Source: Cladopsammia gracilis
Lineage: Eukaryota > Cnidaria > Anthozoa > Scleractinia > Dendrophylliidae
Reading direction: 5' to 3'
Length of the DNA: 64,000 nt
Assembly (NCBI GenBank): GCA_022457155.1
Contig: JAJGOT010000359.1
Location: 421,001-485,000 of the forward strand
Below are positions 21,741 through 60,070 of the stretch, in pieces (positions within the stretch are counted from its first letter, which is position 1; every line of letters starts with the position of its first letter). The notes beneath the pieces were generated by a model. That model did no database searches and had not been told where the DNA came from. It saw nothing but the letters and a program-made list of their open reading frames with translations. Both the position numbers and the translations under genes were made by a program.

Positions 21741-21742
21741 TA

Positions 21743-21806
21743 CAGCTGTTTCGAGAAAGGTTGTCGGAAAAAAGCGTAAAAGTGCAAGCGACAATCCCGA
21801 AAGGTA
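21743..21806 (+). repeat. Left terminal inverted repeat of the 2911-bp element
   Basis: 64 bp match the reverse complement of 24590-24653 with two substitutions. The stretch is basic-residue rich if translated (KVVGKKRK), but its perfect correspondence to the other end marks it as a terminal repeat. Confidence 0.85.
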
Positions 21807-21822
21807 TTGTGGGTAGTTTTAC

Positions 21823-23099
21823 GTGACTTCAGGCATTTCAGGGAAATCTGAGAAAATGGCACGAGATGCCATGGACGTATGTTTGCGAGTGTTAAAAGAA
21901 AGCAACAAAAGTAGGTTTGACAGCTACAGTGTCAGGAACGTGCCTTGCTTTGAAACAGTTATTCAACTGAAGCAATACTTTTTGCAAAATTGTAAAGCGG
22001 AAATTTTTCCAGCAACTGACACGACTTTCCAAATCGGCTACTACGCCGAAGGAAACAAGAAATTCTGTATATCGTCCGAAATCCAGCTCGCCGAGTTGTT
22101 TTCTTTGGTTAAAAAACGGGAGGATAACAATGTGGGTGGATCCACATAAAGACGTTCCAAGGGGTTTTTTGGGTAAAAAGAGAAAAGGTAAGCAATACAA
22201 TAAGGCCACGTTTTGCACGTTTTGTTGCACCTGAAGGTCGGTGAGATTTTTTTCACATGTTTAATTACGGTAATTATGATTACTATTCTCAATTAGGTAA
22301 TCCCAGTGCTCGAGATGATAACAAGGACAGGCGAGGGAGAAGACAGCTACGAGTCTTGCGTAGCGCGGCTGAGAGGGAAGCATGACTTTCCTGAGTTTAA
22401 ATTGCGCTGCTGGGCGCGGATGGTGGTAAGGAAATTTTAATTGCCGGGAGTAATTTTCACCTTTTTTGGTTAGATTTCATATCCACCATCAGGATATATT
22501 TTTTATAATGTTATTTACGTTTTTTCTAAACTGAGTTTTCAATCAAGAGTTGTTTGACAAATGTTTACAAAAATTAGCATAACATGCATGCTTTGCACGT
22601 TCTTGAGACTGAAATAGACATTTTTGAGCTAATTTTACAACAACGAGTTACACTACATCAATATAATTATATTTCAAGGTTTTGCTTGTTTTGTTCAAGG
22701 TCCCCATAAAACCTGAAAACAGGAAAATATTCAGTTTTTATCATTTTATTCCATTATAGGTTAACGGAACCCACAAGAGTGAAGATAACCCTCCGAATGT
22801 TCCATTTTTTACTGGTAATTCGAAAGCGGCTTCGAAACCATTCAAAACTCAGACAACAGGTGAATTCAGTGGACAATCCATGGACGGCGGTGAAAGAAAG
22901 GCAAGAAATGCATTTTTTCAGCTGATGTGCAATTAAGTAGTACTTAACCAAATGCTTTTCTATTTGTAGGCGCGCATACGTACAAGCATACTTCAGCAGC
23001 TGAAGGACCTTAAAGCATATGAAAGACGATGACGTCCTTACGGAAAACGAATTTTCTTTGCAAAAGGAGAAAATGTTGAAAGAAATGAATTCTTTGTAA
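21823..23099 (+). pseudogene. Accessory gene of the Tc1/mariner element: unknown protein with SHOCT-like C-terminus
   Basis: Coding-like blocks in order: 21823-22149 (VIQLKQYFLQNCKAEIFP and FQIGYYAEGNKKFCISSEIQ, which resembles a small PB1 or ubiquitin-like fold); a block reading DVPRGFLGKKRK to a GTAAGC donor at 22188; 22297-22434 (ITRTGEGEDSYESCVARLRG, donor GTAAGG); 22759-22902 (VNGTHKSEDNPPNV, a possible GC donor); and 22970-23099. The last ends LKDLKA, then MKDDDVLTENEFSLQKEKML, a SHOCT-like short helix pair. At least two one-base frameshifts (near 22133 and 23020) break it. Function unknown. Its position inside the terminal repeats makes it cargo of the transposon. Confidence 0.5.
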
Positions 23100-23176
23100 T
23101 TTTTTGAAATACGTATTAACACGTATTAATTACGTATTAATTATTAATGCTGAATAAAATATTTATTAATTATTTA

Positions 23177-24573
23177 TCACAAGTATTCGGCATGTCGAAT
23201 ATAGTTTCTAATTTGTTCATCAGTAACTTGAAGAAATGCTTCTTCCACCATAAATTTGGGATCCATGCAAAATTGCCAGGCCGCGTCGTTTTCCCTTATC
23301 CAGTTTTTTGTTTGTGCAAACAGTTCTTCGCATGGCATAAAATCTGGGCTGTATGGTGGAAGGAACACAACCATTGCTCCTGTGGCATGAATTCGGTGTA
23401 CTACTGCTTCCGTGTGGTGGATAGCCGCGTTATCTGAGACAAATGAAAAATAAGGGAGAAATAAATGAATGAGATATTAATTGTGTAAATCAAAGTGGGG
23501 TTAAATTTGAAATAAAGGGAATGAAGTATCTGACGAGGCACAGAAATAATTCATATCATAACCAGTGTGAAATCTTAGTGTTGCAAGCAATTTTACACTT
23601 ACCCATTATGACCACTGATCGCGGATTGATGCCATTAAATGGAAGCAAGTTAGGGCAGAGCTTTTGATCCACAAACTCTTCAAATCTTGCCCCGTCGACG
23701 TTGCCCTGATAGATCCCTACTTCTATCATCCCTTCCGTGCAAATAACAGGAATGGCTGTTATGCGCGGTCCCCAGTTCTGCGCCTGACGTTTGACTGTGG
23801 CTCTTGTACCGACCAAGCTATAGCCACAAGTGCGAGAAAGTCTTTTGTCCTGAAAAAAGGTAATAAGTTGACAAAAAAAATCATTATTTGTGGTCAAATA
23901 GTCAAAGCGTACGAAAAGCATTGCAGTAGCAATTGAAAACTTACAAATCCGCTTTCGTCCAAGAACACCAACATTTCAGGATCCAGGAGACAAACATTGG
24001 ACTTGAAAAGTATCCGGGCTTCCTCGGATCTTTGAAGGGCAATTCTTGCCAGCTTTGTAAAGAATAATAACAAAAATGATAAAATATGCTTAAATTGACA
24101 CGCACAGGAATTTGATGCAAATAAACTAAAAGGAAATAAAAAGCCATATTAGTCTAAAGTAAAACGAGTATTTGACAAACCTTTTTGCGGGTGAAACTAT
24201 TCCGTTTCAAATACCGCAATATGCTGGAAACAGCACTTTCTGACCCTGTCTGTTCGTAGACATCGTAGACAATCTCTGCAAGAGTTTTGTCTGGGTGTTC
24301 AAGAACTGCTTCTATAATCACGAACTCCACGTGCGGATGCATGGCAAAACTGTTTAACGGTCGTCCTAATTTCTCTGATTTCACTTCGCCAGTATTCAGG
24401 CATTTTGAAATATAGCGCTCCACCGTTCTTGGCGATATGAATAAAGTAGCCGCTACTTCATCCACGCTATATCCTAAAAACTCCTTCATCCATATGGCCC
24501 GCCATCTAATATCATCACTGTACGGACGAGGCATCGCGGGTCTGATGTATTTATTTGACTTATTAAAATTCAT
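23177..24573 (-). CDS. Tc1/mariner (IS630-like) DD34E transposase, four exons, apparently intact
   Basis: Exons on the minus strand: 24573-24181, 24052-23945, 23849-23603 and 23433-23177. Together they give 1005 nt, 334 residues plus stop. All introns have GT-AG borders and phases agree. The N-terminal 130 residues hold helix-turn-helix domains (VDEVAATLFISPRTVERYIS, then KLGRP). Catalytic residues are the Asp of VFLDESGF (exon 2), the Asp split across the exon 3/4 junction (VVIM-D-NAAIHH) and the Glu of YSPDFMPCEELF, with 34 residues between the last two. Strict intron phasing and an unbroken frame suggest recent activity. It should cut and paste the 21743-24653 element at TA sites. Confidence 0.8.
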
Positions 24574-24655
24574 CGATCATATCCCATATTACCTTTCGGG
24601 ATTGTCGCGTGCACTTTTGCGCTTTTTTCCGACAACCTTTCTCGAAACAGCTGTA

Positions 24656-30556: not shown

Positions 30557-31900
30557 TTAAGGAAAGGCTAGAGAGAGGTTCCTCATATCATTTTTCTCAG
30601 AGAAAACCTGAGTAACCACAGAAGCAAGCGGTTTTCCCTCTACTGGGCTGAAGGCGGTGCTCATGGCCAAAGAAGTTGCTACAGAATGGGAATTCATCAC
30701 TTTGCCAGTTTGCGAATAGTAATCAGCCGTTACGGTAGAAGACCACCCAACATGCCTGGCTACGTCCTCTGCGGGTATGCCCAGCAAGGATAGAGTGATT
30801 GAACAACCACTTCGAAAACTATGCATTGTTTCCCCATCATAGATCCCAGCTGAACGAAGGTGCAAAGCAAGCCTGTTGGCTATGGAAGAACCAACAAAAG
30901 GCTCTTCAGAAATTTCATTTCTGCTGTTGAGGACCCTAAATAAAAAACCTTCTCTCAAATTTACAGACATTAGGTCGCATAATTTAACATACAATTTCAA
31001 ATTAGCTACTGGGCAGGTCTTGGGGTCCGGGCATTCCTTTACCATGAAAGTATTGGTTTTTCCACCACCCCTTAAGGTCTTGCCAAAAGTGTGACGGAAC
31101 AAAAACCCATTCCCATCCGGGAGAAAAATAATTTCTTTTGTAAAAATTCTGCCAAGGTCTGAGGCACGATCCCCTGAATAGAAATCAAGACAAAAAAAGG
31201 CCAGATCCCTTGCATAGAGGTAGCGTTGGACAGCGGTTGCGCCCTTCGAAAAAATTAAATCCCTGAGATGAAGACAAAGTTTAGTTAACTTCTCAAAGAA
31301 GATAGGAATAGCTTGTTTTTTAAAAACACGCGCCTTTGCTTGTTCTTCACGCACTGCAGAGAGGTACTGTTTCACCGAGTGATGGGCTGCCGGGTTTCCA
31401 AAACCGAGAACATCGTTCCAAACATCACCCCTTCCTGCGTCTATAAAAATGGAGCGCAACTTTCCGATCAAGTTATCAACGGTTCCAGCTGCGAGTCTTC
31501 TTGGACACTGGCATCAAGCTTTACCGGAAACTCCAAAATGCTTACACTGAGGCAGATGAATTTTAGTTTTCCCGCCCTTATCCTTCCAAATAAGAAATCT
31601 CGTTAGATCGTGAGGGGTGGTTGACAGAAGAGACTTGGGGGAGGATAAGGAGTAAAGGAAACACTCAAGTTCACGCTGAAGGCTAGATTTCTGTTTCTGA
31701 TACGGTTTATCACTCTTAACCTTCTGAAGAGCTTCGAGGCGGTAGTCAATGGCTGCAAGGTCTAAACTAACTTTTTCTGATTCCGGAACATTGGCCACCT
31801 TCCTTCGTGTGTAACCGCATTGCTGGCAAAAAGCAAAAGAGGCATCGTTTGGATAGGAACAGTTTGGGCAACTGAGTGCAGGAGACCAGATTCTTGCCAC
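30557..31900 (-). CDS. Tyrosine recombinase of the retrotransposon, one in-frame stop
   Basis: One frame runs from 31900 to 30557, interrupted only by TGA at 31514-31516, in phase on both sides. The N-terminus has a zinc-ribbon-like Cys set (CPNCSYPNDASFAFCQQCGY). The C-terminal domain keeps all tyrosine-recombinase signature residues: Arg in GDRASDLGRI, Lys in TFGKTLRGGGKT, HxFR in MHSFRSGCS, His/Trp in ARHVGWSS and the nucleophile Tyr in ADYYSQTG. The enzyme would integrate the circular cDNA. The single nonsense codon would remove the catalytic domain. Confidence 0.85.
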
Positions 31901-32149
31901 CAGGGGGAGGTCCTAAATCAGCAAAAAGACTCTTACATGAGGGGGCTAAACCAATAAAACGCAAAACAGGCCTTATAAAAGAAAATGTTTATTAGGAACA
32001 CGAAAGTTCAAGTCTGGGACGGACACGCCGTCGCAAAAAAGGAGTAAGTACGAACTTAACACCACAAACGAATATCCTGAGCGTCTTAAACAGTTGAGAA
32101 ACTTCTCTTGAGCTGGTATTTGACATGAGTACGTAATTATGCTTAACAT

Positions 32150-34281
32150 AAATTAAGATGCAGCAAAGCGGAAAACCCAGAGATCCCATTGAAGAGGTCT
32201 GCTTTCCCAAGAAGAACGACCTGTTTTAACGGGGAATAGGAGAACCGAATTCTCTCCCCTTTGGCCCAACTTGAATGCAGCGATAGACTGACGCTGGAGG
32301 AGGGGCCACCAGTATTTTCTGGGCGAGAGGTCTGGAGCAATCAAAGTATAAGGGCATGGTTGCGAAGCCAGGTACTTAACGAGCGGGCCAATAAGCGTAA
32401 AAGGTGGAAATACTTAAGCGTTCTCGCTGGAAGCTAACTCTTGAGAAAAGACATTGGTTCCTTGGGCCTGAATACAAGGAAACGGGGAGAAAAACTTTAA
32501 AGGGCGTCCTGAGCGATCCGCCTTGATGTTAGAAGGGAGGGCCATTAGATCGATGGTATGAGGCCCAAAGGTTGACTCCACCAAATTCCACGGCTTAACA
32601 TCAAGCGAAGCATCTAGGTCTGAGAGTGTGCGCGAAGGAGCATCCGCTGGATTACTTCTGGAGGGGACGTATTACAAAGAAATAGAAAGATTTCTACAAA
32701 GTGAAAACTGGAAAATTGATTTCATAATGTCAGAAACCTCCGGGGACCTTGAGACTTGATTCTCCCAACTAGACACTAGGGGTTTGTTGTCTACGAAGAC
32801 ATCCACTCTGGTGTTCTCTGAACGATGAAGAAGATTCTCCAATGTGAGACGTAGGGCCTGAACTTCTTTGACAATAATGGGACGTTCTCGAACAGTTTCA
32901 TCCCAATAACCATGGATTACGACTTCAGGACGACCAGGACTAAAAAGGCAACCGCCCCATCCGAAATTAGAAACGTCAGAAAACAGTTGAACTTGTAAGT
33001 GAGATTCGTTTCTCCAAGGCAAGAAACCCTGCCAGTTATCAAGAAAACGCCAGTGGGCAATTTCAGTTCGAAGACAAGGTGACAGTTTAACTTATGGGTA
33101 GAAGTCTTAACAGCTCGAGAAATGGCATGATACACACAATTGGTGTATAACTTAGCTGCAGGGACGAGGAGGGCGAAAGATGTAGTCTTCCCGGCAAACT
33201 TTTGGAGCGTCTTAAGAGAAACGAACTTCTTGCTAAGAATGGCTTCCCTTAATTCCGTGAACTTTTCTTTTTTATCCTGAGGGAGGAGGAAAGCTTGCTT
33301 TTCTGAATCGCAAATAAAACCTAGGAAACGCTGTGCCGTTGAGGGGATCAAAGAGCTCTTCTTGAGGCCAATGAAGTATCCAAGTGATATAGCGACGAAA
33401 CAGGCGACGAAAGCCGCCATCTGAGCCAATTGATAGTTTGAGAAAACGCAGAGACCGCTAGCCGATGGTCGTAAACACAGCTAACCGACGTGCCGGTCAT
33501 GAATATACTGAGAACAAGGAACTCCAAGCGATCTAATGAAATGGGTAGCAGCCAGGCCAACTGTATTGTACACAAAAGCGCTAGCTTTCCAGCCAAACGG
33601 GAGAGAGGCGTACGTAAAAAACCAACCTTGCCACTCAAAACCAAAGAAGGTATAACTGCTAGGATTGAGGCGGATATGATCATAACCGCTTTTGTCGTCA
33701 AACGTTGTCTGATAGTGGCCAGGGTAGACATAGCGGCAGAGGTCGGTCAGGTAATCAAGCTTAAAAGGACAATCTTTGATCCAACAATTAATAAAGCGCT
33801 CATCATGGCACATGCGAGGTTTACTTGGCTCAACTGTTATTGGCATAACCAAATGAGGTGGATCAACTTCACCGACCCGGCCAACGACATTGATTGAACC
33901 ATTACAAATCCTTTCCTTAATGGTTGCTGAAATAAACTCTTTGAAAGGATGGCAGGACACCGAATTTGGGAAATACATGCGAGGAGGTAAATTGCTGCAA
34001 TAAGTTTTTCCTTGAAAAGTACCGTTGAAAGGGGTAAAGAAATCGAAGACATCCACACCGTCCCTAATAAAAGCCAGTACAAAGTCTCTTTGCTTGTAAC
34101 CTACAGAGATCTGGTCCCATTGTTCCAAACATGAGGAAAGGTTTCCCGCCACAAACGAATTTGGATCACGAAAACGAAGCATCTCCGGAGAAGCGAAAAC
34201 TCGGCCCTCAGCAACCATTTGCAATGACGGGAGTGGCCCAGCCCAGCTAGTGGGGTTATTTTCCCTGTCGCACCATAACAC
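32150..34281 (-). pseudogene. Reverse transcriptase and RNase H of the retrotransposon, inactivated
   Basis: RT (34281-33481) shows PKPRMCHD-like contexts (VEPSKPRMCHDERFINCW), the motif A context FDDKSGYDHIRL and SLPFGWKASAF. The catalytic box reads YIHD where YIDD/YxDD is expected, and a TAG follows four residues later (33481). The frame then continues through a connection (SLIPSTAQRFLGFICDSEKQ) and, after a frameshift near 33060, RNase H (33022-32672) with LFSDVSNFGWGG, IIVKEVQAL and VFVDNKPL. C-terminal sequence (SNPADAPSRTLSDLD, then a region to about 32150) runs toward the recombinase. The active-site change plus stop mean no functional RT. Confidence 0.85.
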
Positions 34282-34589
34282 AGGATTAGAACGTTGTGGA
34301 AGGTGAGACTGGCAGAAACTGGAAAACTCCTATAAAACGAAGGGATAACGAAAAACAGACTTACAGAGGAACAAATAAAACTGACAAAACGAAAGGGAAA
34401 ATACTCCACTAACCGAGCCGGACCAGGAACCCGTCGTAAACGGATTATAGGGCGTAACTGAGATTACCCTTCTGGTCACAGCTAGGAAAGTGGAAAAAAA
34501 AAGGAGGGAGAAAACAAACACGCCAAAAATAGCATAAAGGAAGTAAATTTATTAAGCCAGAAAACAAAAAATCAAAGGATTACATCTTT

Positions 34590-40532: not shown

Positions 40533-41238
40533 GTGAAAGTGCAATAACCACTTTTATCGCTTATAAAACCTTAGGCATCTATGATAACAGATTGATTTCT
40601 TGTCTGGGAAATGTATTATTTATGTCCTTTCTACTGCGTATATAAGAAGCAATAAAACTTAATTTGACAGAATGGCTTAATGATAAGATTGTTGTATATG
40701 ACTTGCGTTACATCGCATTCCGTGACTATAAATTCCAGTTGAAAAGGAAAATAATATATAAAAATGTAAGGAAAATTAATTTAGAGCAACACTTTTGCGA
40801 CATTTATGTAACGAAGTTTCTTAGTGCCGTTTGTTTACAAGAATCGTGTTAAGATGTGTTATTTAACACGAATTGAGAGTAAAACGTAACAGGATTTAAT
40901 GAAAAGTTTAATAAAGGTTTGTGTTGATTTTAGTTACGTTACAGTGTCTCAGGTTATCTTTTATCCTTTACGTTTTAGGGAAATATTTTAACGGCGTGAC
41001 TGAAGTAAATAAGGTATTAAACTATTTGCGTGGAAACAGACTTTAGGGATAGTTTAAGTTTTCGAAAAAATACGGGAAGTTTCTCGTTTGACACGTATGC
41101 GTGCGGAAAGGTGTACGTGAAATCCGGAGATGACATCATCGTGGAATCTTCTAGCCCCAGAATTTTTTTTTGGATACCTATTTATTTAGTTATTGGGTTC
41201 TAACATACAGACAATATGGTAAATGAATAGTTTGTACA
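40533..41238. other. Upstream region of the Tc1 transposase
   Basis: AT-rich without coding sense. The left terminal repeat of the Tc1 element should lie here, but I could not match it to sequence after 42334. Confidence 0.35.
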
Positions 41239-42334
41239 ATGGTATTCAAGGAAAAAATATCTCCTGAGAAAAGAGCAATAGCAATTTTTTTGCGTCAAGA
41301 ATCTGGCCTGAGCTTTCCCAAAATTGCTGAAAAATGCAAGATGTCTAAGTCGTCGGCTGAACGGATTTGTAAAAGTTATCTTCGACCGAGAAGAAATCAA
41401 GCGCATTCTCGGAAAACTGGTAGGCCGAGTAAGATTTCTCCCCATATGAAGCACGTGTTGCAGAGAAACCTCTTGAAAATGAGAAAAGATGGTCTGGGAG
41501 TGACGGTGAAAAAACTGGTAACGTACCGCGGACTAAGTCTTCAAACAGCAAGTGTTCGTACCTATTCACGATGCTTGAATGAGATGGGGTTCTGGTTTTT
41601 ACAATCTAGAAAGAAAGGGCTTTTGAAAGAAAGTGACAAGAAAGGTCGTCTTAAGTATGCAAGGAAAATGGAACGGTATGAGAAGAGCCACCCAGATTTT
41701 TGGACCAATGAAATAGCTTTCTACTGGGATGGAGTGTCTTTTGTACACAAGACAAATCCTATGAGCGCTGCAATGGCTCCAAAAGCAAGAGTGTGGCGCA
41801 AAAAAAGTGAAGGTCTACAAGTAACCAGCAAAGGTTCTAAAGATTTAGCCGGAGGAAAACGTCTGCATGTCATGGTTGCAATAGCTTACGGAAAAGGCGT
41901 GGTACTCAAAGAACCGTATGAAAAATTGAATGGCCTATTTTTCGCTAATTTTATTAGACAACATTTTAACTTGTGTTTCGGACGTGCAGGGCCAAAGCGA
42001 GATGGGAAGCGTCTATTTGTTATGGATAACGATCCAAGTCAGACATCTAAGGTAGCAATGGATGCTTTAAAAGAAATTGAATGTGAACTATGTAAGATAC
42101 CCTCACGTTCGCCAGACCTAAACCCTTGTGAATCGATTTTTCACATCTTAAGACACGTTAGAGAATGAAGCTATTGAAAATAATATAACTAAAGAGACAT
42201 TTGAAGACTTCCAAAAGAGAGTGTTACGAACACTTGACGAGTTAGATTCTGCTGTTATAGATAAAACAATTGAAAGCATGCCCGTGCGAATAAAATTAAT
42301 CATTGAAGGAAAGGGTTCTCGAACCAAGTATTAA
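41239..42334 (+). pseudogene. Tc1-type DD34E transposase with one frameshift
   Basis: The ATG at 41239 opens a continuous frame of 309 codons: a paired helix-turn-helix region (residues about 10-60, LSFPKIAEKCKMSKSSAERI; GRPSKIS linker), then the catalytic domain. Its Asp lie in FYWDGVSFVHK and VMDNDPSQTS, and its Glu in SRSPDLNPCESIFH, with 34 residues between the last two. The frame ends early at TGA (42168) just after the Glu. The remaining C-terminus (ENEAIENNITKETFEDFQKR onward) continues one base out of phase to TAA at 42332-42334. A single indel therefore separates it from an intact enzyme of about 360 residues. Confidence 0.8.
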
Positions 42335-42984: not shown

Positions 42985-44316
42985 TCAGTTGACGTTTTCC
43001 AAAATCAATTTCGCAAAGCAATGTCCACAGGGAGTTAACTGTAGTTGTTCAGCTGGTGGGATTTGTCTCCAGAAATGGAAAAACCTCCACCGCACATTCA
43101 TCATTTCAGTGTTGGCATGGCAAACACTCCCACCCTTAATAAAAACAATTGGAGTGTCTGACGTTGCAAAGACTGGTGTATCTTTAGTGAGCTCGATGTC
43201 TCGCTTTGAAAAATTTTTGGGTGCGGGCAAATGAACAATATCCCCTTCGAGCAACTGCAGCATGTCAGCCCATGCTATAATGGATGGCTTCCACCGAAAG
43301 TCATTCAGCATAATTAACTCCGCGTCTTCTGCTCCAACCCAGGCGAAAGTTCCGGTTGCTGGGTTACAGAATGTTTTGTATATGCCTTTCAAAGGGGAAA
43401 GCATAAAGCTTTTCCCGCAGTTCGCAACACCGTGAATAAAAATGTTTCTGTACTTTCCTCTCCCTTTCTCTAATAATGCATGTACAGCTTGGGCAAAAAC
43501 ACTGACGCTTATTTCATTCTTATTCAGAAGATGAGTTGCCGCTTCTAACCATTTGCCATTGCAGTCCACTACGCATTCTCCTGTATGCATCTCCCGCAAG
43601 AGTTCAATACGAGACTTTTGAGACCTTGCGTATTTTGCTTCCGCTGTTGCTAACTCGTGGGCAATAGCCAAACATTCATCAACAACTTTTCCGCCTCTGT
43701 TGCATATAAACTCAGCGAGATCTTTTTTTCCTTCACGATTCTGAGATGCTGCTACAGTCATTAACTCAAGGCGTGATCTTATTTTCTTGGATTGAATATA
43801 CTCCGCCACCTCGTACATTGAAAGGCCACACTTTCTTCTTTTCTTGCTCACATCATTAGTGCGTGCTTTTCGTTTGTTTCCTGTAATAGCCTTCTCGGTT
43901 CTTGGTGGAGTCGCATTTGTTAGGTCTGGGTGGCCATTTGAATGAAGACAGTCGCCATCCTCTTTTGTTGTGTACTTATACGCTGAGTAGTACGTGTTGT
44001 GGTTTGAGCTAAAGTTGACCTTTATCCCGAGCCTGTCGTCAAGAAACTTTCGAACTCTTAGCCATCGTGTGCGTTTTTCCAGCTTCAGTGCCATGTGATA
44101 GTGGGAATGGCTTTCAGACACACTTGAATTGGAATGCAGTTCAAGCGCTACTACCCATTGATGAACTTTAACGCCAGTCGTTTCCATCCACCCTAACGAT
44201 ACTATTTCAGCAAAAGCTTCTCTTGTTGGAATTTTTTCTAAATCAGCCCTACTGTATGTGACAAGATATACAAGTCGTTGCTCACGTTCTCTTAGACTCT
44301 CACTGACCTCCGTCAT
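42985..44316 (-). CDS. HUH endonuclease-SF3 helicase Rep-like protein, intact
   Basis: One uninterrupted frame of 443 codons from ATG 44316. N-terminal endonuclease region: YLVTYSRAD at about 17-25 (motif I position), HUH-type HYH at 72-74 and a YxxK motif (YTTK) at 115-118. A basic bipartite signal follows (about 147-162). C-terminal superfamily 3 helicase: Walker A GVANCGKS at 296-303, Walker B LIMLNDF ending near 340, motif C region FATSDTP near 383. This is the architecture of rolling-circle or rolling-hairpin Rep proteins of CRESS-DNA and parvovirus-like replicons. From memory, similar genes are multi-copy in cnidarian genomes (unchecked). It could be an endogenised viral gene or a Rep-driven transposon. 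Confidence 0.75.
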   Translation of the reverse strand: MTEVSESLREREQRLVYLVTYSRADLEKIPTREAFAEIVSLGWMETTGVKVHQWVVALELHSNSSVSESHSHYHMALKLEKRTRWLRVRKFLDDRLGIKVNFSSNHNTYYSAYKYTTKEDGDCLHSNGHPDLTNATPPRTEKAITGNKRKARTNDVSKKRRKCGLSMYEVAEYIQSKKIRSRLELMTVAASQNREGKKDLAEFICNRGGKVVDECLAIAHELATAEAKYARSQKSRIELLREMHTGECVVDCNGKWLEAATHLLNKNEISVSVFAQAVHALLEKGRGKYRNIFIHGVANCGKSFMLSPLKGIYKTFCNPATGTFAWVGAEDAELIMLNDFRWKPSIIAWADMLQLLEGDIVHLPAPKNFSKRDIELTKDTPVFATSDTPIVFIKGGSVCHANTEMMNVRWRFFHFWRQIPPAEQLQLTPCGHCFAKLILENVN

Positions 44317-44720
44317 TATGTACCTGATCTGTTACGGACTGGCTAACCCTTAACCTTAAGAGACAAGTTTCACGCACCCCCTCCCCTCTAAATAATTATT
44401 AACAGTGTACTATTCTCTTGTGTTAAAAATAAAGCACTCACAAATTTCTGGGTGGACGTTAGTGCTATACAGTTATACTCAAGTGCCTATTTACGACTTA
44501 AAAATGAAGAAATGAAGAGACTTTCAAAGGTTCTTATATCAACTTATTTTTAACAAATTCTTAGCTGCAAGATTAATAAGACGAAGCATTTTCTGTTCTC
44601 TCGGTTTATCTTTCATAAGAACTGTCACTAACGTGCTTTTTTATAAGAAACACTTATCAATTTCGCTCTAAACAAAATCGCTCAATTTTTTCCTATCTTG
44701 ACCACACCCATATTTTTCAG
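44317..44720. other. Upstream region of the Rep-like gene
   Basis: No coding sense and no recognisable promoter beyond AT-richness. It is bounded by the second 264-bp repeat. Confidence 0.4.
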
Positions 44721-57102: not shown

Positions 57103-57150
57103 GGGTAGAGACCAGACGAAGTGTGACCCCCTGGTCCTCCAGGTTGGGGG

Positions 57151-58452
57151 TTGAGCTACAGCCCAATCACCTGTTCTCGGAAAAAAAAAAACGGAACCAC
57201 AACTCATCAGATTCGAATCAATGATGGCAAAGCCGTGGCTGCTGACGGACAACCAGCCGGAAGCATCAGGACGTCACTGGGTAAAAGCCTACGGGAAGCT
57301 CAGCGACCAATGAGGTCAATGGCAATGCCAAAGTTGGTTACCCGGATTGGTTGCTGGAATGTACGCACGATGTATATAGCAGGTAAAGCCACACAGGTGG
57401 TGAGGGAGATGGATAGATACGAACTAGATGTGCTGGGGATCAGCGAGACAAGATGGACGGGGGCTGGACGGGTCACTCTGGCCAACGGCAGCACCTTGTT
57501 GTGTGCTGGAGAGGAGGAAGGACATCAAAAAGGTGTGGCACTGATGATATCACAGGAGGTGCAGAGAAGCTTAATGGAATGGATGCCTGTAAGCAGCAGA
57601 GTGTTCAGTGCAAGGTTCTATTCACGATTCAAGAAGATCACCATCATCCAAGCGTATGCGCCAACAAAAGACGCCACACCAGAAGAGAAAGATGACTTTT
57701 ATCATCAATTACAGACAACAACGGACAGGTGCAACAAAAATGACATCGTGATCGTCATGGGTGATATGAATGCAAAGGTGGGAGACGACAACAGCGAGAT
57801 GGAGGAGGTTATAGGGAGAGATGGTCTGGGGGGCAGGAACGACAATGGAGAGAGGCTGTGCGAGTACTGCTCCATTAATGGCCTTGTCATCACTGGAACG
57901 TGCTTCCCTCAAAAGGATATACACAAGGCCACGTGGGTCTCCCCTGACAGGCAAACAAGGAACCAGATAGACCACATCATGATAAGGAGAATATGGAGGA
58001 CGTCAGTCACTGACACTAGAGTACAGCGAGGAGCAGACGCAGCTAGCGACCACTACCTTGTAGTAACAAAACTACAGATGAAGCTCCACAAAGACCCAAA
58101 TAGGAAGAAGATCAAAGCCAGGTTTGACACGCAAAAGCTGGATAGTGCGATGTTTAAGGAGCGGTTCAACGTTGAGTTGAGCAACAGGTTCGAAGCACTA
58201 GAGGTAGAGGGGGACGTGAACGATGACTGCAGCCAGATAGAGAAAGTGTACACGGAGACTGTAGACAAGGTGATAGAAAGGGTGAAGAAGGGGAGCAAGC
58301 AATGGTTGAGGGATGGCACATGGAGGGCGATAGAGGAAAGGAGGCAGATAGGAAATAAAATTGACAGTACCAGATCAGAGCATGTCAAAGGAAGGTTGCG
58401 CATAGAATACAGGCTGAAGGACAGAAGTGAAGCACAGGGCAAGAGAGGATAA
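57151..58452 (+). CDS. RTE-type LINE: APE-like endonuclease region
   Basis: 433 codons from 57151. The endonuclease starts near residue 68 with RIGCWNVRTMYIAGKATQVV, continues LDVLGISETRWTGAGRV (catalytic Glu), IIQAYAPT, VIVMGDMNAKVGD, and ends with IDHIMI and ADAASDHYLVV (catalytic Asp and His). The frame ends at TAA 58450-58452. The RT part continues in a different phase from about 58425, so a one-base indel separates the two. Confidence 0.8.
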   Translation: MSYSPITCSRKKKNGTTTHQIRINDGKAVAADGQPAGSIRTSLGKSLREAQRPMRSMAMPKLVTRIGCWNVRTMYIAGKATQVVREMDRYELDVLGISETRWTGAGRVTLANGSTLLCAGEEEGHQKGVALMISQEVQRSLMEWMPVSSRVFSARFYSRFKKITIIQAYAPTKDATPEEKDDFYHQLQTTTDRCNKNDIVIVMGDMNAKVGDDNSEMEEVIGRDGLGGRNDNGERLCEYCSINGLVITGTCFPQKDIHKATWVSPDRQTRNQIDHIMIRRIWRTSVTDTRVQRGADAASDHYLVVTKLQMKLHKDPNRKKIKARFDTQKLDSAMFKERFNVELSNRFEALEVEGDVNDDCSQIEKVYTETVDKVIERVKKGSKQWLRDGTWRAIEERRQIGNKIDSTRSEHVKGRLRIEYRLKDRSEAQGKRG

Positions 58453-60070
58453 GAGACACTGGACAGAAGAGATCGCTAAGGAAGCTGAGAGATCTGTTGA
58501 GAAAGGACGCACAAGAGAGCTGTACCAGGCGGCAAGAAGACTCACTAATAAGAAGACGAGACAAGCCGCTGCCGTAAAGGATAAGCATGGAGAAGTAATC
58601 AAGGACAAGGAGGCGAGACTTGAGAGATCAGCGGAGCACTTTGAAGAAGTGCTTGTGAGGAAGGTGCCTACGAACCCTGTAACAGATGAAGAGACGGCAG
58701 CAGAAGAGTTGAGGGAGATGGACACAGCAGAGATCAGGGAAGATGAAGTCAGACAAGCCCTAAGGAAGACAAAAAGTGGAAAGGCACCTGGAATGGACGA
58801 AATACCCGTAGAGTTGCTGAAAGCAAGCGGTGACACAGCAGTACAACTGACAAGACTACACAGGAAGATATGGAGGGAGGAAAGAATACTGGACAGTTGG
58901 AAGAAAGGAATCATCGTCAAACTACCAAAGAAAGGGGACTTGAAAGAGTGCAAAAACTGGATAGGAGTGACACTGCTGCCAGTAATGAGCAAAATCAAGG
59001 GCCGAGTCATAATCGAACGGATCCAACGGGGAGTGGATGAGGTTCTCAGAAGGGAACAGGCAGGATTCCGTAGGAATAGGAGCACAGTGGAGCAGATCTT
59101 CATCCTCCGCAACATCATGGAGCGGGTGAACGAGTGGAGAGCGACGCTGTACACACACTTCATTGACTTCGAGAAGGCTTTTGATTCGATCCACAGAGAA
59201 AGCTTGTGAAAGATCATGAAGTCGTACGGCATACCTGAAAAGCTGGTGAAGATGGTCAAAATCATGTATGAGGAATTTGAGTGCACAGTAATGGATGACG
59301 GGGAACAGACTAGGTGGATCAAGATCACGACGGGAGTCAAGCAAGGATGTGTTATGTCAGGATTCCTCTTCCTCATAGCAATAGATTGGGTGATGAGAAG
59401 GACGACACACGGGCACAAGAATGGAATACGATGGAACTTCATCAGCATATTAGAACACCTTGACTTCGCAGACGATATTGCTCTGATCTTGTTGAAGTAC
59501 GAACACATACAGAGCAAGACGGATCGATTGGTGGAGAACGCCGGGCGTGTAGGACTGAAGCTCAACGCGGCAAAATGCAAGATGTTGAGATCGAATGCAA
59601 GACGGCAGGATCGGGTCAAGATTGGAGAAGATGAAGTCGAAGAAGTGGAAGAATTCGTATACCTCGGAGCAACGGTCAGGAAAGATGGTGGTGGAACTGA
59701 AGATATTAGGAACCGACTAAATAAAGCAAGAGGGGCGTTCTATAACCTAACGAAGATATGGAGGTTACGGAGCATAGGACACCAAACAAAGATCAAGCTG
59801 TTCAAGACGCTAGTACGCCCAGTACTACTCTACGGATGCGAGGCGTGGAAAATGACAAAGGTGGAGGAAAAGAAGATGGATGCGTTCCAGTTTGTGTGCC
59901 TCAGACGAATCCTCGGAATTCGGTGGCCACAGAGAGTGAGCAACGAGAGGATAGAGGAGATAACAGGAATAAACAAGACCAGTGGTGAGATCCGCAGGAG
60001 ACGTTGGAACTGGATCGGGCACGTCTTGAGAAAAGATGCAACCGATAACTGCAGGGTAGCGTTAGGGTGA
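58427..60070 (+). pseudogene. RTE-type LINE: reverse transcriptase, one in-frame stop
   Basis: RT motifs: LPKKGDLKECKNWIGVTLL, RREQAGFRRNRSTVEQIFIL, motif A FIDFEKAFDSI, then TGA at 59207-59209 replacing one codon, GVKQGCVMSGFLFL (motif B), FADDIAL (catalytic box) and a C-terminal RRRRWNWIGHVLRKD. Catalytic residues are intact. The only defects seen are this stop and the frameshift at 58425, so the copy is relatively young. Confidence 0.8.

Follow-up and report, generated by a model that had tools for sequence, protein, structure and literature searches.

A 64,000-nucleotide stretch of the genome of the stony coral Cladopsammia gracilis (hereafter the window; positions 421,001 to 485,000 of contig JAJGOT010000359.1) contains a 2,911-bp mobile element at window positions 21743-24653, in which one pair of terminal inverted repeats (TIRs) encloses two unrelated, convergent multi-exon genes. 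One of these codes for a DD34E transposase, the other for a protein with a predicted PB1-like domain and a SHOCT-like helical tail. The arrangement had been proposed in a first reading of the window that was made without database searches (the sequence-only reading), and is confirmed by reconstruction of the exons. Tc1/mariner transposases are one-protein systems and widely used genetic tools. The element described here is rather likely to represent a two-gene cut-and-paste lineage of the IS630-Tc1-mariner (ITm) group in anthozoans, whose second protein would be a co-factor of transposition.

Element Boundaries and Gene Layout

The left TIR (21743-21813, plus strand) and the right TIR (24583-24653, minus strand) each comprise 71 nt within the element and are 94.4% identical. 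A repeat finder returned 77 nt, the surplus being six flanking bases that match by chance. TA lies immediately outside both ends, and the sequence and the comparison of flanks identify these unstranded dinucleotides (21741-21742 on the left, 24654-24655 on the right) as target-site duplications. Among 22 loci of the same family that were examined, 18 have both ends located, and 16 of these are flanked by TA on both sides; the pairs L020/L021 and L026/L027 have common flanks and are not independent insertions. The sequence-only reading had placed both ends and the TA duplications exactly, and gave the length of the inverted repeats as 64 bp. TA duplications and TIRs are both features of the ITm group, and TIRs were found in the window family as well as, in versions of their own, in the related families L059 and L066 described below.

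The start codons of the second gene and of the transposase gene lie 113 bp and 80 bp, respectively, from the element ends, and a spacer of 77 nt separates the two stop codons. This spacer contains one AATAAA on each strand, at 23153-23158 (plus) after the stop of the second gene and at 23162-23167 (minus) just after that of the transposase. The spacer of family L059 also carries AATAAA on each strand.

The transposase gene occupies the minus strand. Its first exon (24181-24573) codes for the helix-turn-helix DNA-binding region, exon 2 (23945-24052) contains the first catalytic aspartate in the motif FLDESGF, exon 3 (23603-23849) follows, and exon 4 (23177-23433) provides the second aspartate, the glutamate and the stop codon, with 34 residues between the two catalytic positions as counted by eye on the translation. 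Joined through three GT..AG introns, the exons of the window copy yield 334 amino acids without a stop. The DD34E transposase of the sequence-only reading is thus open, and its splice junctions (24181/24052, 23945/23849, and 23603/23433) were exactly reproduced from the sequence; the homolog P0121 reads across all three. The N-terminus matches the helix-turn-helix profile HTH_23 at 24.8 bits, marginally above the cut-off of 24.6, and a structure model places helices in residues 7-111. The NCBIfam profile of IS630 transposases is matched at 120.2 bits (cut-off 100), and the protein is a DDE/D transposase of the DDE_3/IS630 type. The best fold matches of the predicted structure are Sleeping Beauty, SETMAR, and Mos1, and in a sequence search of solved structures SETMAR was the sole match (E 0.012-0.014). 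No match to the transposase was found in a search of viral contigs.

The second gene, on the plus strand, consists of exon 1 (21856-22187) with the PB1-like domain, whose fold is taken from the relative P0001, and a KKRK stretch, exon 2 (22297-22425) with a conserved PEFKLRCWARM segment, exon 3 (22760-22900), and exon 4 (22970-23099) with the SHOCT-like helix pair and the stop. Its introns are, in order, of the GT-AG, GT-AG, and GC-AG types, and the third is supported because family L059 has GT-AG at the same place. Judged by alignment, the homolog P0009 crosses all three junctions and then ends in another frame. The plus-strand multi-exon gene with a SHOCT-like helix pair that the sequence-only reading described is therefore present with its four exons, but in the window copy it is frameshifted: single extra bases near 22116 (exon 1), 22329 (exon 2), and 23019 (exon 4) break the frame and rule out an intact second gene in this copy. 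These bases are missing from 19 of 20, 20 of 20, and 5 of 5 other aligned copies, respectively, the single exception at 22116 being L016, a decayed short derivative. In copy L003 the same exons form an open frame of 242 amino acids with a stop. Homologs of the second protein in other corals keep the frame of L003, and the window copy is therefore the derived one. Sequencing or assembly error may be the source of its extra bases.

Viewed along the whole element, the region 21830-23020 of the window copy contains single extra bases near 21833, 22116, 22205, 22329, and 23019, all of them in the left half and without counterpart in almost all other aligned copies, and the transposase half shows none in the displayed alignment, which for the left half leaves out element bases 901-1020 and one further stretch. 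The window copy also has a longer AT-rich stretch near 23122-23138 than other copies. The extra bases of the left half may stem either from decay confined to the second gene or from an artefact of assembly.

Copies and Divergent Families in the Coral Genome

A DNA search of the coral's own genome (877.8 Mb in 1,469 contigs) returned at least 165 matching pieces, with 40 of 572 candidates scored. Longer copies of varying completeness are L002, L003, L009, L010, L011, L012, and L013. Among these seven and the window copy both genes are open only in L003 (242 and 334 amino acids), in a comparison of reading frames in which several of the eight copies are incomplete in the regions read. The copies are inserted at differing flanks. 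Short derivatives make up 13 of 28 compared loci, several of which overlap (L014 and L017-L028). They join element bases ~1-877 to ~2566-2911, or somewhat less on either side, and thus lack exons 2-4 and part of exon 1 of the transposase gene as well as exons 3-4 of the second gene. Their common breakpoints suggest a single internal deletion that was later amplified; perhaps all descend from one deleted copy, and presumably they moved in trans. All thirteen still hold exons 1-2 of the second gene. Copies without the plus-strand gene had been named beforehand as evidence against a two-gene element. Among the 28 loci, only these short deletion derivatives come into question, and they also lack most of the transposase.

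A search of the genome with the second protein gave 199 matches, divergent ones included, and revealed two further families with both genes. Family L059 (C1306:127400-132600) is flanked by TA and has its own TIRs, which match over 75 nt at 97%, five bases on each side of this match lying outside the element. Between them lie a second gene of 242 amino acids and a transposase gene of 326 amino acids, both open and convergent, with introns at positions matching those of the window family. L064 (C1066) is a further copy of the L059 type with parts of both genes and one stop in exon 1. In family L066 (C631:89700-96600) the TIRs match over 77 nt at 93.5%, and tblastn recovers all exons of the two genes, again convergent and with the same intron breaks, over ~4.1 kb; this family is known from these exon matches. 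L060 (C203) belongs to the L066 family and carries a stop in exon 2. The TIRs of the families differ much, with CAGCT.TTT outermost and TATGGG or TGTGGG innermost as common ends. The second proteins are also divergent, with identities of 0.577 between the window family and L059, 0.531 between the window family and L060, and 0.531 between L059 and L060. Thus, the finding of several copies with both genes between the same ends, which had been set beforehand as a test, was made in three families of this genome.

Among the 30 loci returned by the second-protein search (L029-L058), 25 also contain transposase sequence, in every case on the opposite strand. The five others are L040, L041, L044, L046, and L050, the first three of which are pieces of L010, L009, and L013, respectively, whose longer stretches match the transposase part. 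The arrangement is not due to chance, because at least 165 matching pieces exist, because their flanks differ, and because two divergent families show it too. Apart from its novelty, nothing speaks for a chance nesting of two unrelated elements, a possibility with a probability close to nil: the second gene begins 113 bp inside the TIR end and finishes 77 nt short of the stop codon of the transposase, and the recurrence of this layout, both in other families and in copies whose flanks differ, refutes it. The plus-strand exons were also considered as part of a host gene or of a nested element, and this was ruled out by their recurrence and their position wholly inside the TIRs.

Codon comparisons between L003 and L059 gave 0.272 nonsynonymous (pN) and 0.757 synonymous (pS) differences per site for the second gene (234 codons) and a pN of 0.151 and a pS of 0.672 for the transposase gene (326 codons); a pN/pS ratio is not quoted because the synonymous sites are near saturation. 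These values plainly point to purifying selection on both genes. The sequence-only reading had regarded the second gene as cargo. Its presence inside the TIRs was correctly seen, but a gene kept by purifying selection between divergent families is a standing part of the element, and the label is wrong. For the same reason it is very improbable that the second gene is a captured host gene or a passenger that does nothing for the element. DNA transposons are able to take up host sequence and PB1 is a host domain, and the plant MUSTANG-B (MUGB) transposase-derived proteins probably gained their PB1 domain in that way (PMC8616336). However, a passenger would hardly be expected at the same position, in the same orientation and with the same introns in three families with much-differing TIRs, and pN is far below pS; a systematic look for host copies outside TIRs was not part of the analysis. 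Selection would be compatible with a negative regulator, acting in copy-number control or overproduction inhibition, and the window copy, which lost the frame of the second gene and kept an open transposase, might have been favoured by the loss of such a brake. Yet L003 and L059 are open in both frames, and conservation would be expected whether the effect is positive or negative and contains nothing specific to repression. A repressive role therefore seems quite unlikely, and a co-factor of transposition remains the preferred reading of the second protein.

Distribution Among Anthozoans

In a database search, the 120 listed homologs of the second protein include proteins from Montipora foliosa, Porites lobata, Acropora cervicornis, Oculina patagonica, Stylophora pistillata, and Desmophyllum pertusum. 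A profile search, again with 120 matches listed, added Porites lutea, Acropora muricata, Pocillopora meandrina, Exaiptasia diaphana, and Actinostola. Most entries in these two listings carry no host name; all hosts named among the matches listed are stony corals or sea anemones. Homologs of the transposase extend to the octocorals Paramuricea and Dendronephthya, and for both proteins the nearest named relatives among the matches listed are from stony corals. In a transposase tree with 40 rows, which took in database homologs and sequences from the coral's own genome and no named reference families, the window copy groups with L059, L060 (partial), P0121, and P0122 in a clade (support 98/92) nested in a ten-row anthozoan clade (100/100). 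P0121, itself without a host name, groups with the Acropora protein P0122.

Translated TIR sequence was detected in 36 of the 120 listed homologs of the second gene (28 on the inward strand and eight on the other strand), in 3 of 120 listed transposase homologs, and in 2 of the 67 second-protein homologs that were new in the profile search, and reversed-sequence controls gave none in any of these sets. In other assemblies the second gene and some transposases therefore also begin just inside this TIR.

Three coral proteins (P0005, P0022, and P0049) have parts of the second protein joined to unrelated sequence, which is an F5/8 type C domain in P0005 and a Pol polyprotein in P0049. These joins may be annotation chimaeras or cases of exon capture.

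The Second Protein and its Possible Function

The predicted fold assigns a PB1-like (ubiquitin-like) domain to the second protein. The match to the SHOCT profile covers its full length (1-28) at residues 209-236, and the relatives P0037 and P0049 are annotated with this family (PF09851) in the database. Pfam and NCBIfam searches with the protein and its relatives gave nothing besides this sub-threshold SHOCT match and GvpG at E 0.37. By sequence, one match to solved structures was obtained (E 0.84), and the 130 pattern stretches that the alignment of the second protein hit in viral contigs include no relative.

According to the proposed mechanism, the exons of both genes would be spliced as modelled, and each TIR region probably serves as the promoter of one gene. 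The transposase would bind the TIRs via its helix-turn-helix domains and, like its relatives, cut and insert at TA through an RNase H-like D,D,E site. The second protein, with its putative PB1-like assembly domain, a basic stretch, the conserved central segment, and the SHOCT-like helical tail, could self-assemble or pair with the transposase through the PB1-like domain and the tail, and might aid either nuclear delivery, via the basic stretch, or assembly of the two-ended complex. By analogy, we infer that it may work like the Myb-like protein of Harbinger, to which it is unrelated. More tentatively, and with less confidence than a co-factor as such, it is possible that a DD34E transposase depends here on a co-inherited, convergently encoded assembly protein of the PB1/SHOCT type, that this dependence predates the split between stony corals and sea anemones, and that it is the first of its kind among animal Tc1/mariner elements. 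If so, the Tc1/mariner group, like Harbinger, can evolve two-component machinery, which raises the question of what use a PB1/SHOCT protein is to a transposon. It would also be a practical warning that coral gene sets hold genes of transposons under the name of PB1- or SHOCT-domain proteins.

The PB1-like domain would also fit a protein that faces the host, binding host PB1 proteins (of the p62, aPKC, or MEKK type) or silencing factors and thereby shielding the element from degradation or silencing. This is an unlikely alternative: no host partner is known, and the alignment, inspected by eye, does not show the acidic OPCA motif that marks type I PB1 domains, which makes the choice of partner unpredictable.

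Several observations weigh against a two-gene lineage with a protein co-factor. The window copy itself combines an open transposase with a broken second gene; its second protein is either missing or supplied in trans. L046 and L050 have no transposase match within the stretch fetched, L061 (C1003) comprises exons 1-2 of the second gene and no transposase match, and L063 (C572) has second-gene exons, with nothing that matches the transposase in its fetched 5 kb. L062 (C989) looks like a short derivative, and none of L061, L062, and L063 contains a complete gene pair. The PB1 assignment rests on the predicted fold of the relative P0001, with a mean predicted local distance difference test score (pLDDT) of 71.8 and a predicted template modelling score (pTM) of 0.41, and no Pfam PB1 family matched the second protein at E up to 10. 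Its SHOCT match is below the Pfam cut-off (18.2 versus 27 bits), and no recognised DNA-binding domain was found in it. The co-location of both genes in elements of other species is likely, on indirect sequence evidence. Finally, Sleeping Beauty and Mos1 are not known to need a second element-encoded protein.

Comparison with Known Elements

With Tc1/mariner elements of the DD34E type the element shares the TA duplication, the TIRs, the helix-turn-helix N-terminus, and the D,D34E catalytic domain; it differs in its four-exon transposase gene and the conserved second gene. Autonomous ITm elements "usually carry one" open reading frame (ORF; PMC8533490), and in a survey of 5,158 Tc1/mariner elements extra ORFs are reported from the ciliate TBE and Tec elements (PMC7325037). 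These ciliate elements are similar in being Tc1/mariner elements whose DD34E transposase is accompanied by further ORFs, of which Tec has one in reverse orientation, but each has three ORFs, which include a small ORF and a zinc-finger protein in TBE and a site-specific recombinase in Tec (PMC7325037). The anthozoan element has one extra, PB1/SHOCT-like protein, for which the Pfam scan listed neither a zinc finger nor a site-specific recombinase, and in this it differs from TBE/Tec. The HvSm family of Hydra and Schmidtea, compared by description only, also has a DD34E transposase and TA duplications, with a full-length copy of 2,751 bp and 56-bp TIRs, and the available part of its description mentions no second gene (PMC7325037).

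A functional parallel would be PIF/Harbinger, in which the transposase is likewise accompanied by a conserved second protein. This Myb-like protein interacts with the transposase, permits joint nuclear import, and is required for transposition (PMC9179366). Harbinger differs, however, in its transposase superfamily and in the Myb/SANT-like nature of the second protein; no Myb/SANT profile was listed for the second protein here in the Pfam scan, and the element is not a member of PIF/Harbinger. MUSTANG-B proteins of plants also join a PB1 domain to a transposon-derived protein (PMC8616336), but there PB1 is fused to a domesticated transposase of the Mutator-like element type, whereas here it belongs to a separate protein of an unrelated mobile element. 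Kinship with the coral miniature inverted-repeat transposable elements of PMC2872659 was considered and rejected, those elements being linked in its abstract to piggyBac-like elements. Searches of the Creative Commons-licensed PubMed Central literature, judged by titles and abstract beginnings, yielded no paper on a SHOCT or PB1 gene in a Tc1/mariner element, none on a two-gene element in cnidarians, and no description of this element; Repbase, which was outside this search, may hold a consensus.

Other Features of the Window

A single-exon frame of 313 residues at 41227-42168 (plus strand) matches DDE_3 at 42.6 bits and, below the threshold, a Tc3-type helix-turn-helix; by eye it is unlike the transposase of the two-gene element. 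Convergent with it is an open frame of 448 amino acids at 42985-44331 (minus strand) with a weak match to Parvo_NS1 (22.2 bits, cut-off 20), and no long inverted repeat was found around this pair. The region 30560-34329 (minus strand) contains an ORF that matches ALOG at 43.7 bits and, below the threshold, Phage_integrase. A second ORF, further along, matches reverse transcriptase, likewise below the threshold; this is perhaps a tyrosine-recombinase retroelement. At 57127-60067 (plus strand), ORFs with endonuclease (45.6 bits) and reverse-transcriptase (53.3 bits) matches are suggestive of an element of the long interspersed nuclear element (LINE) type.
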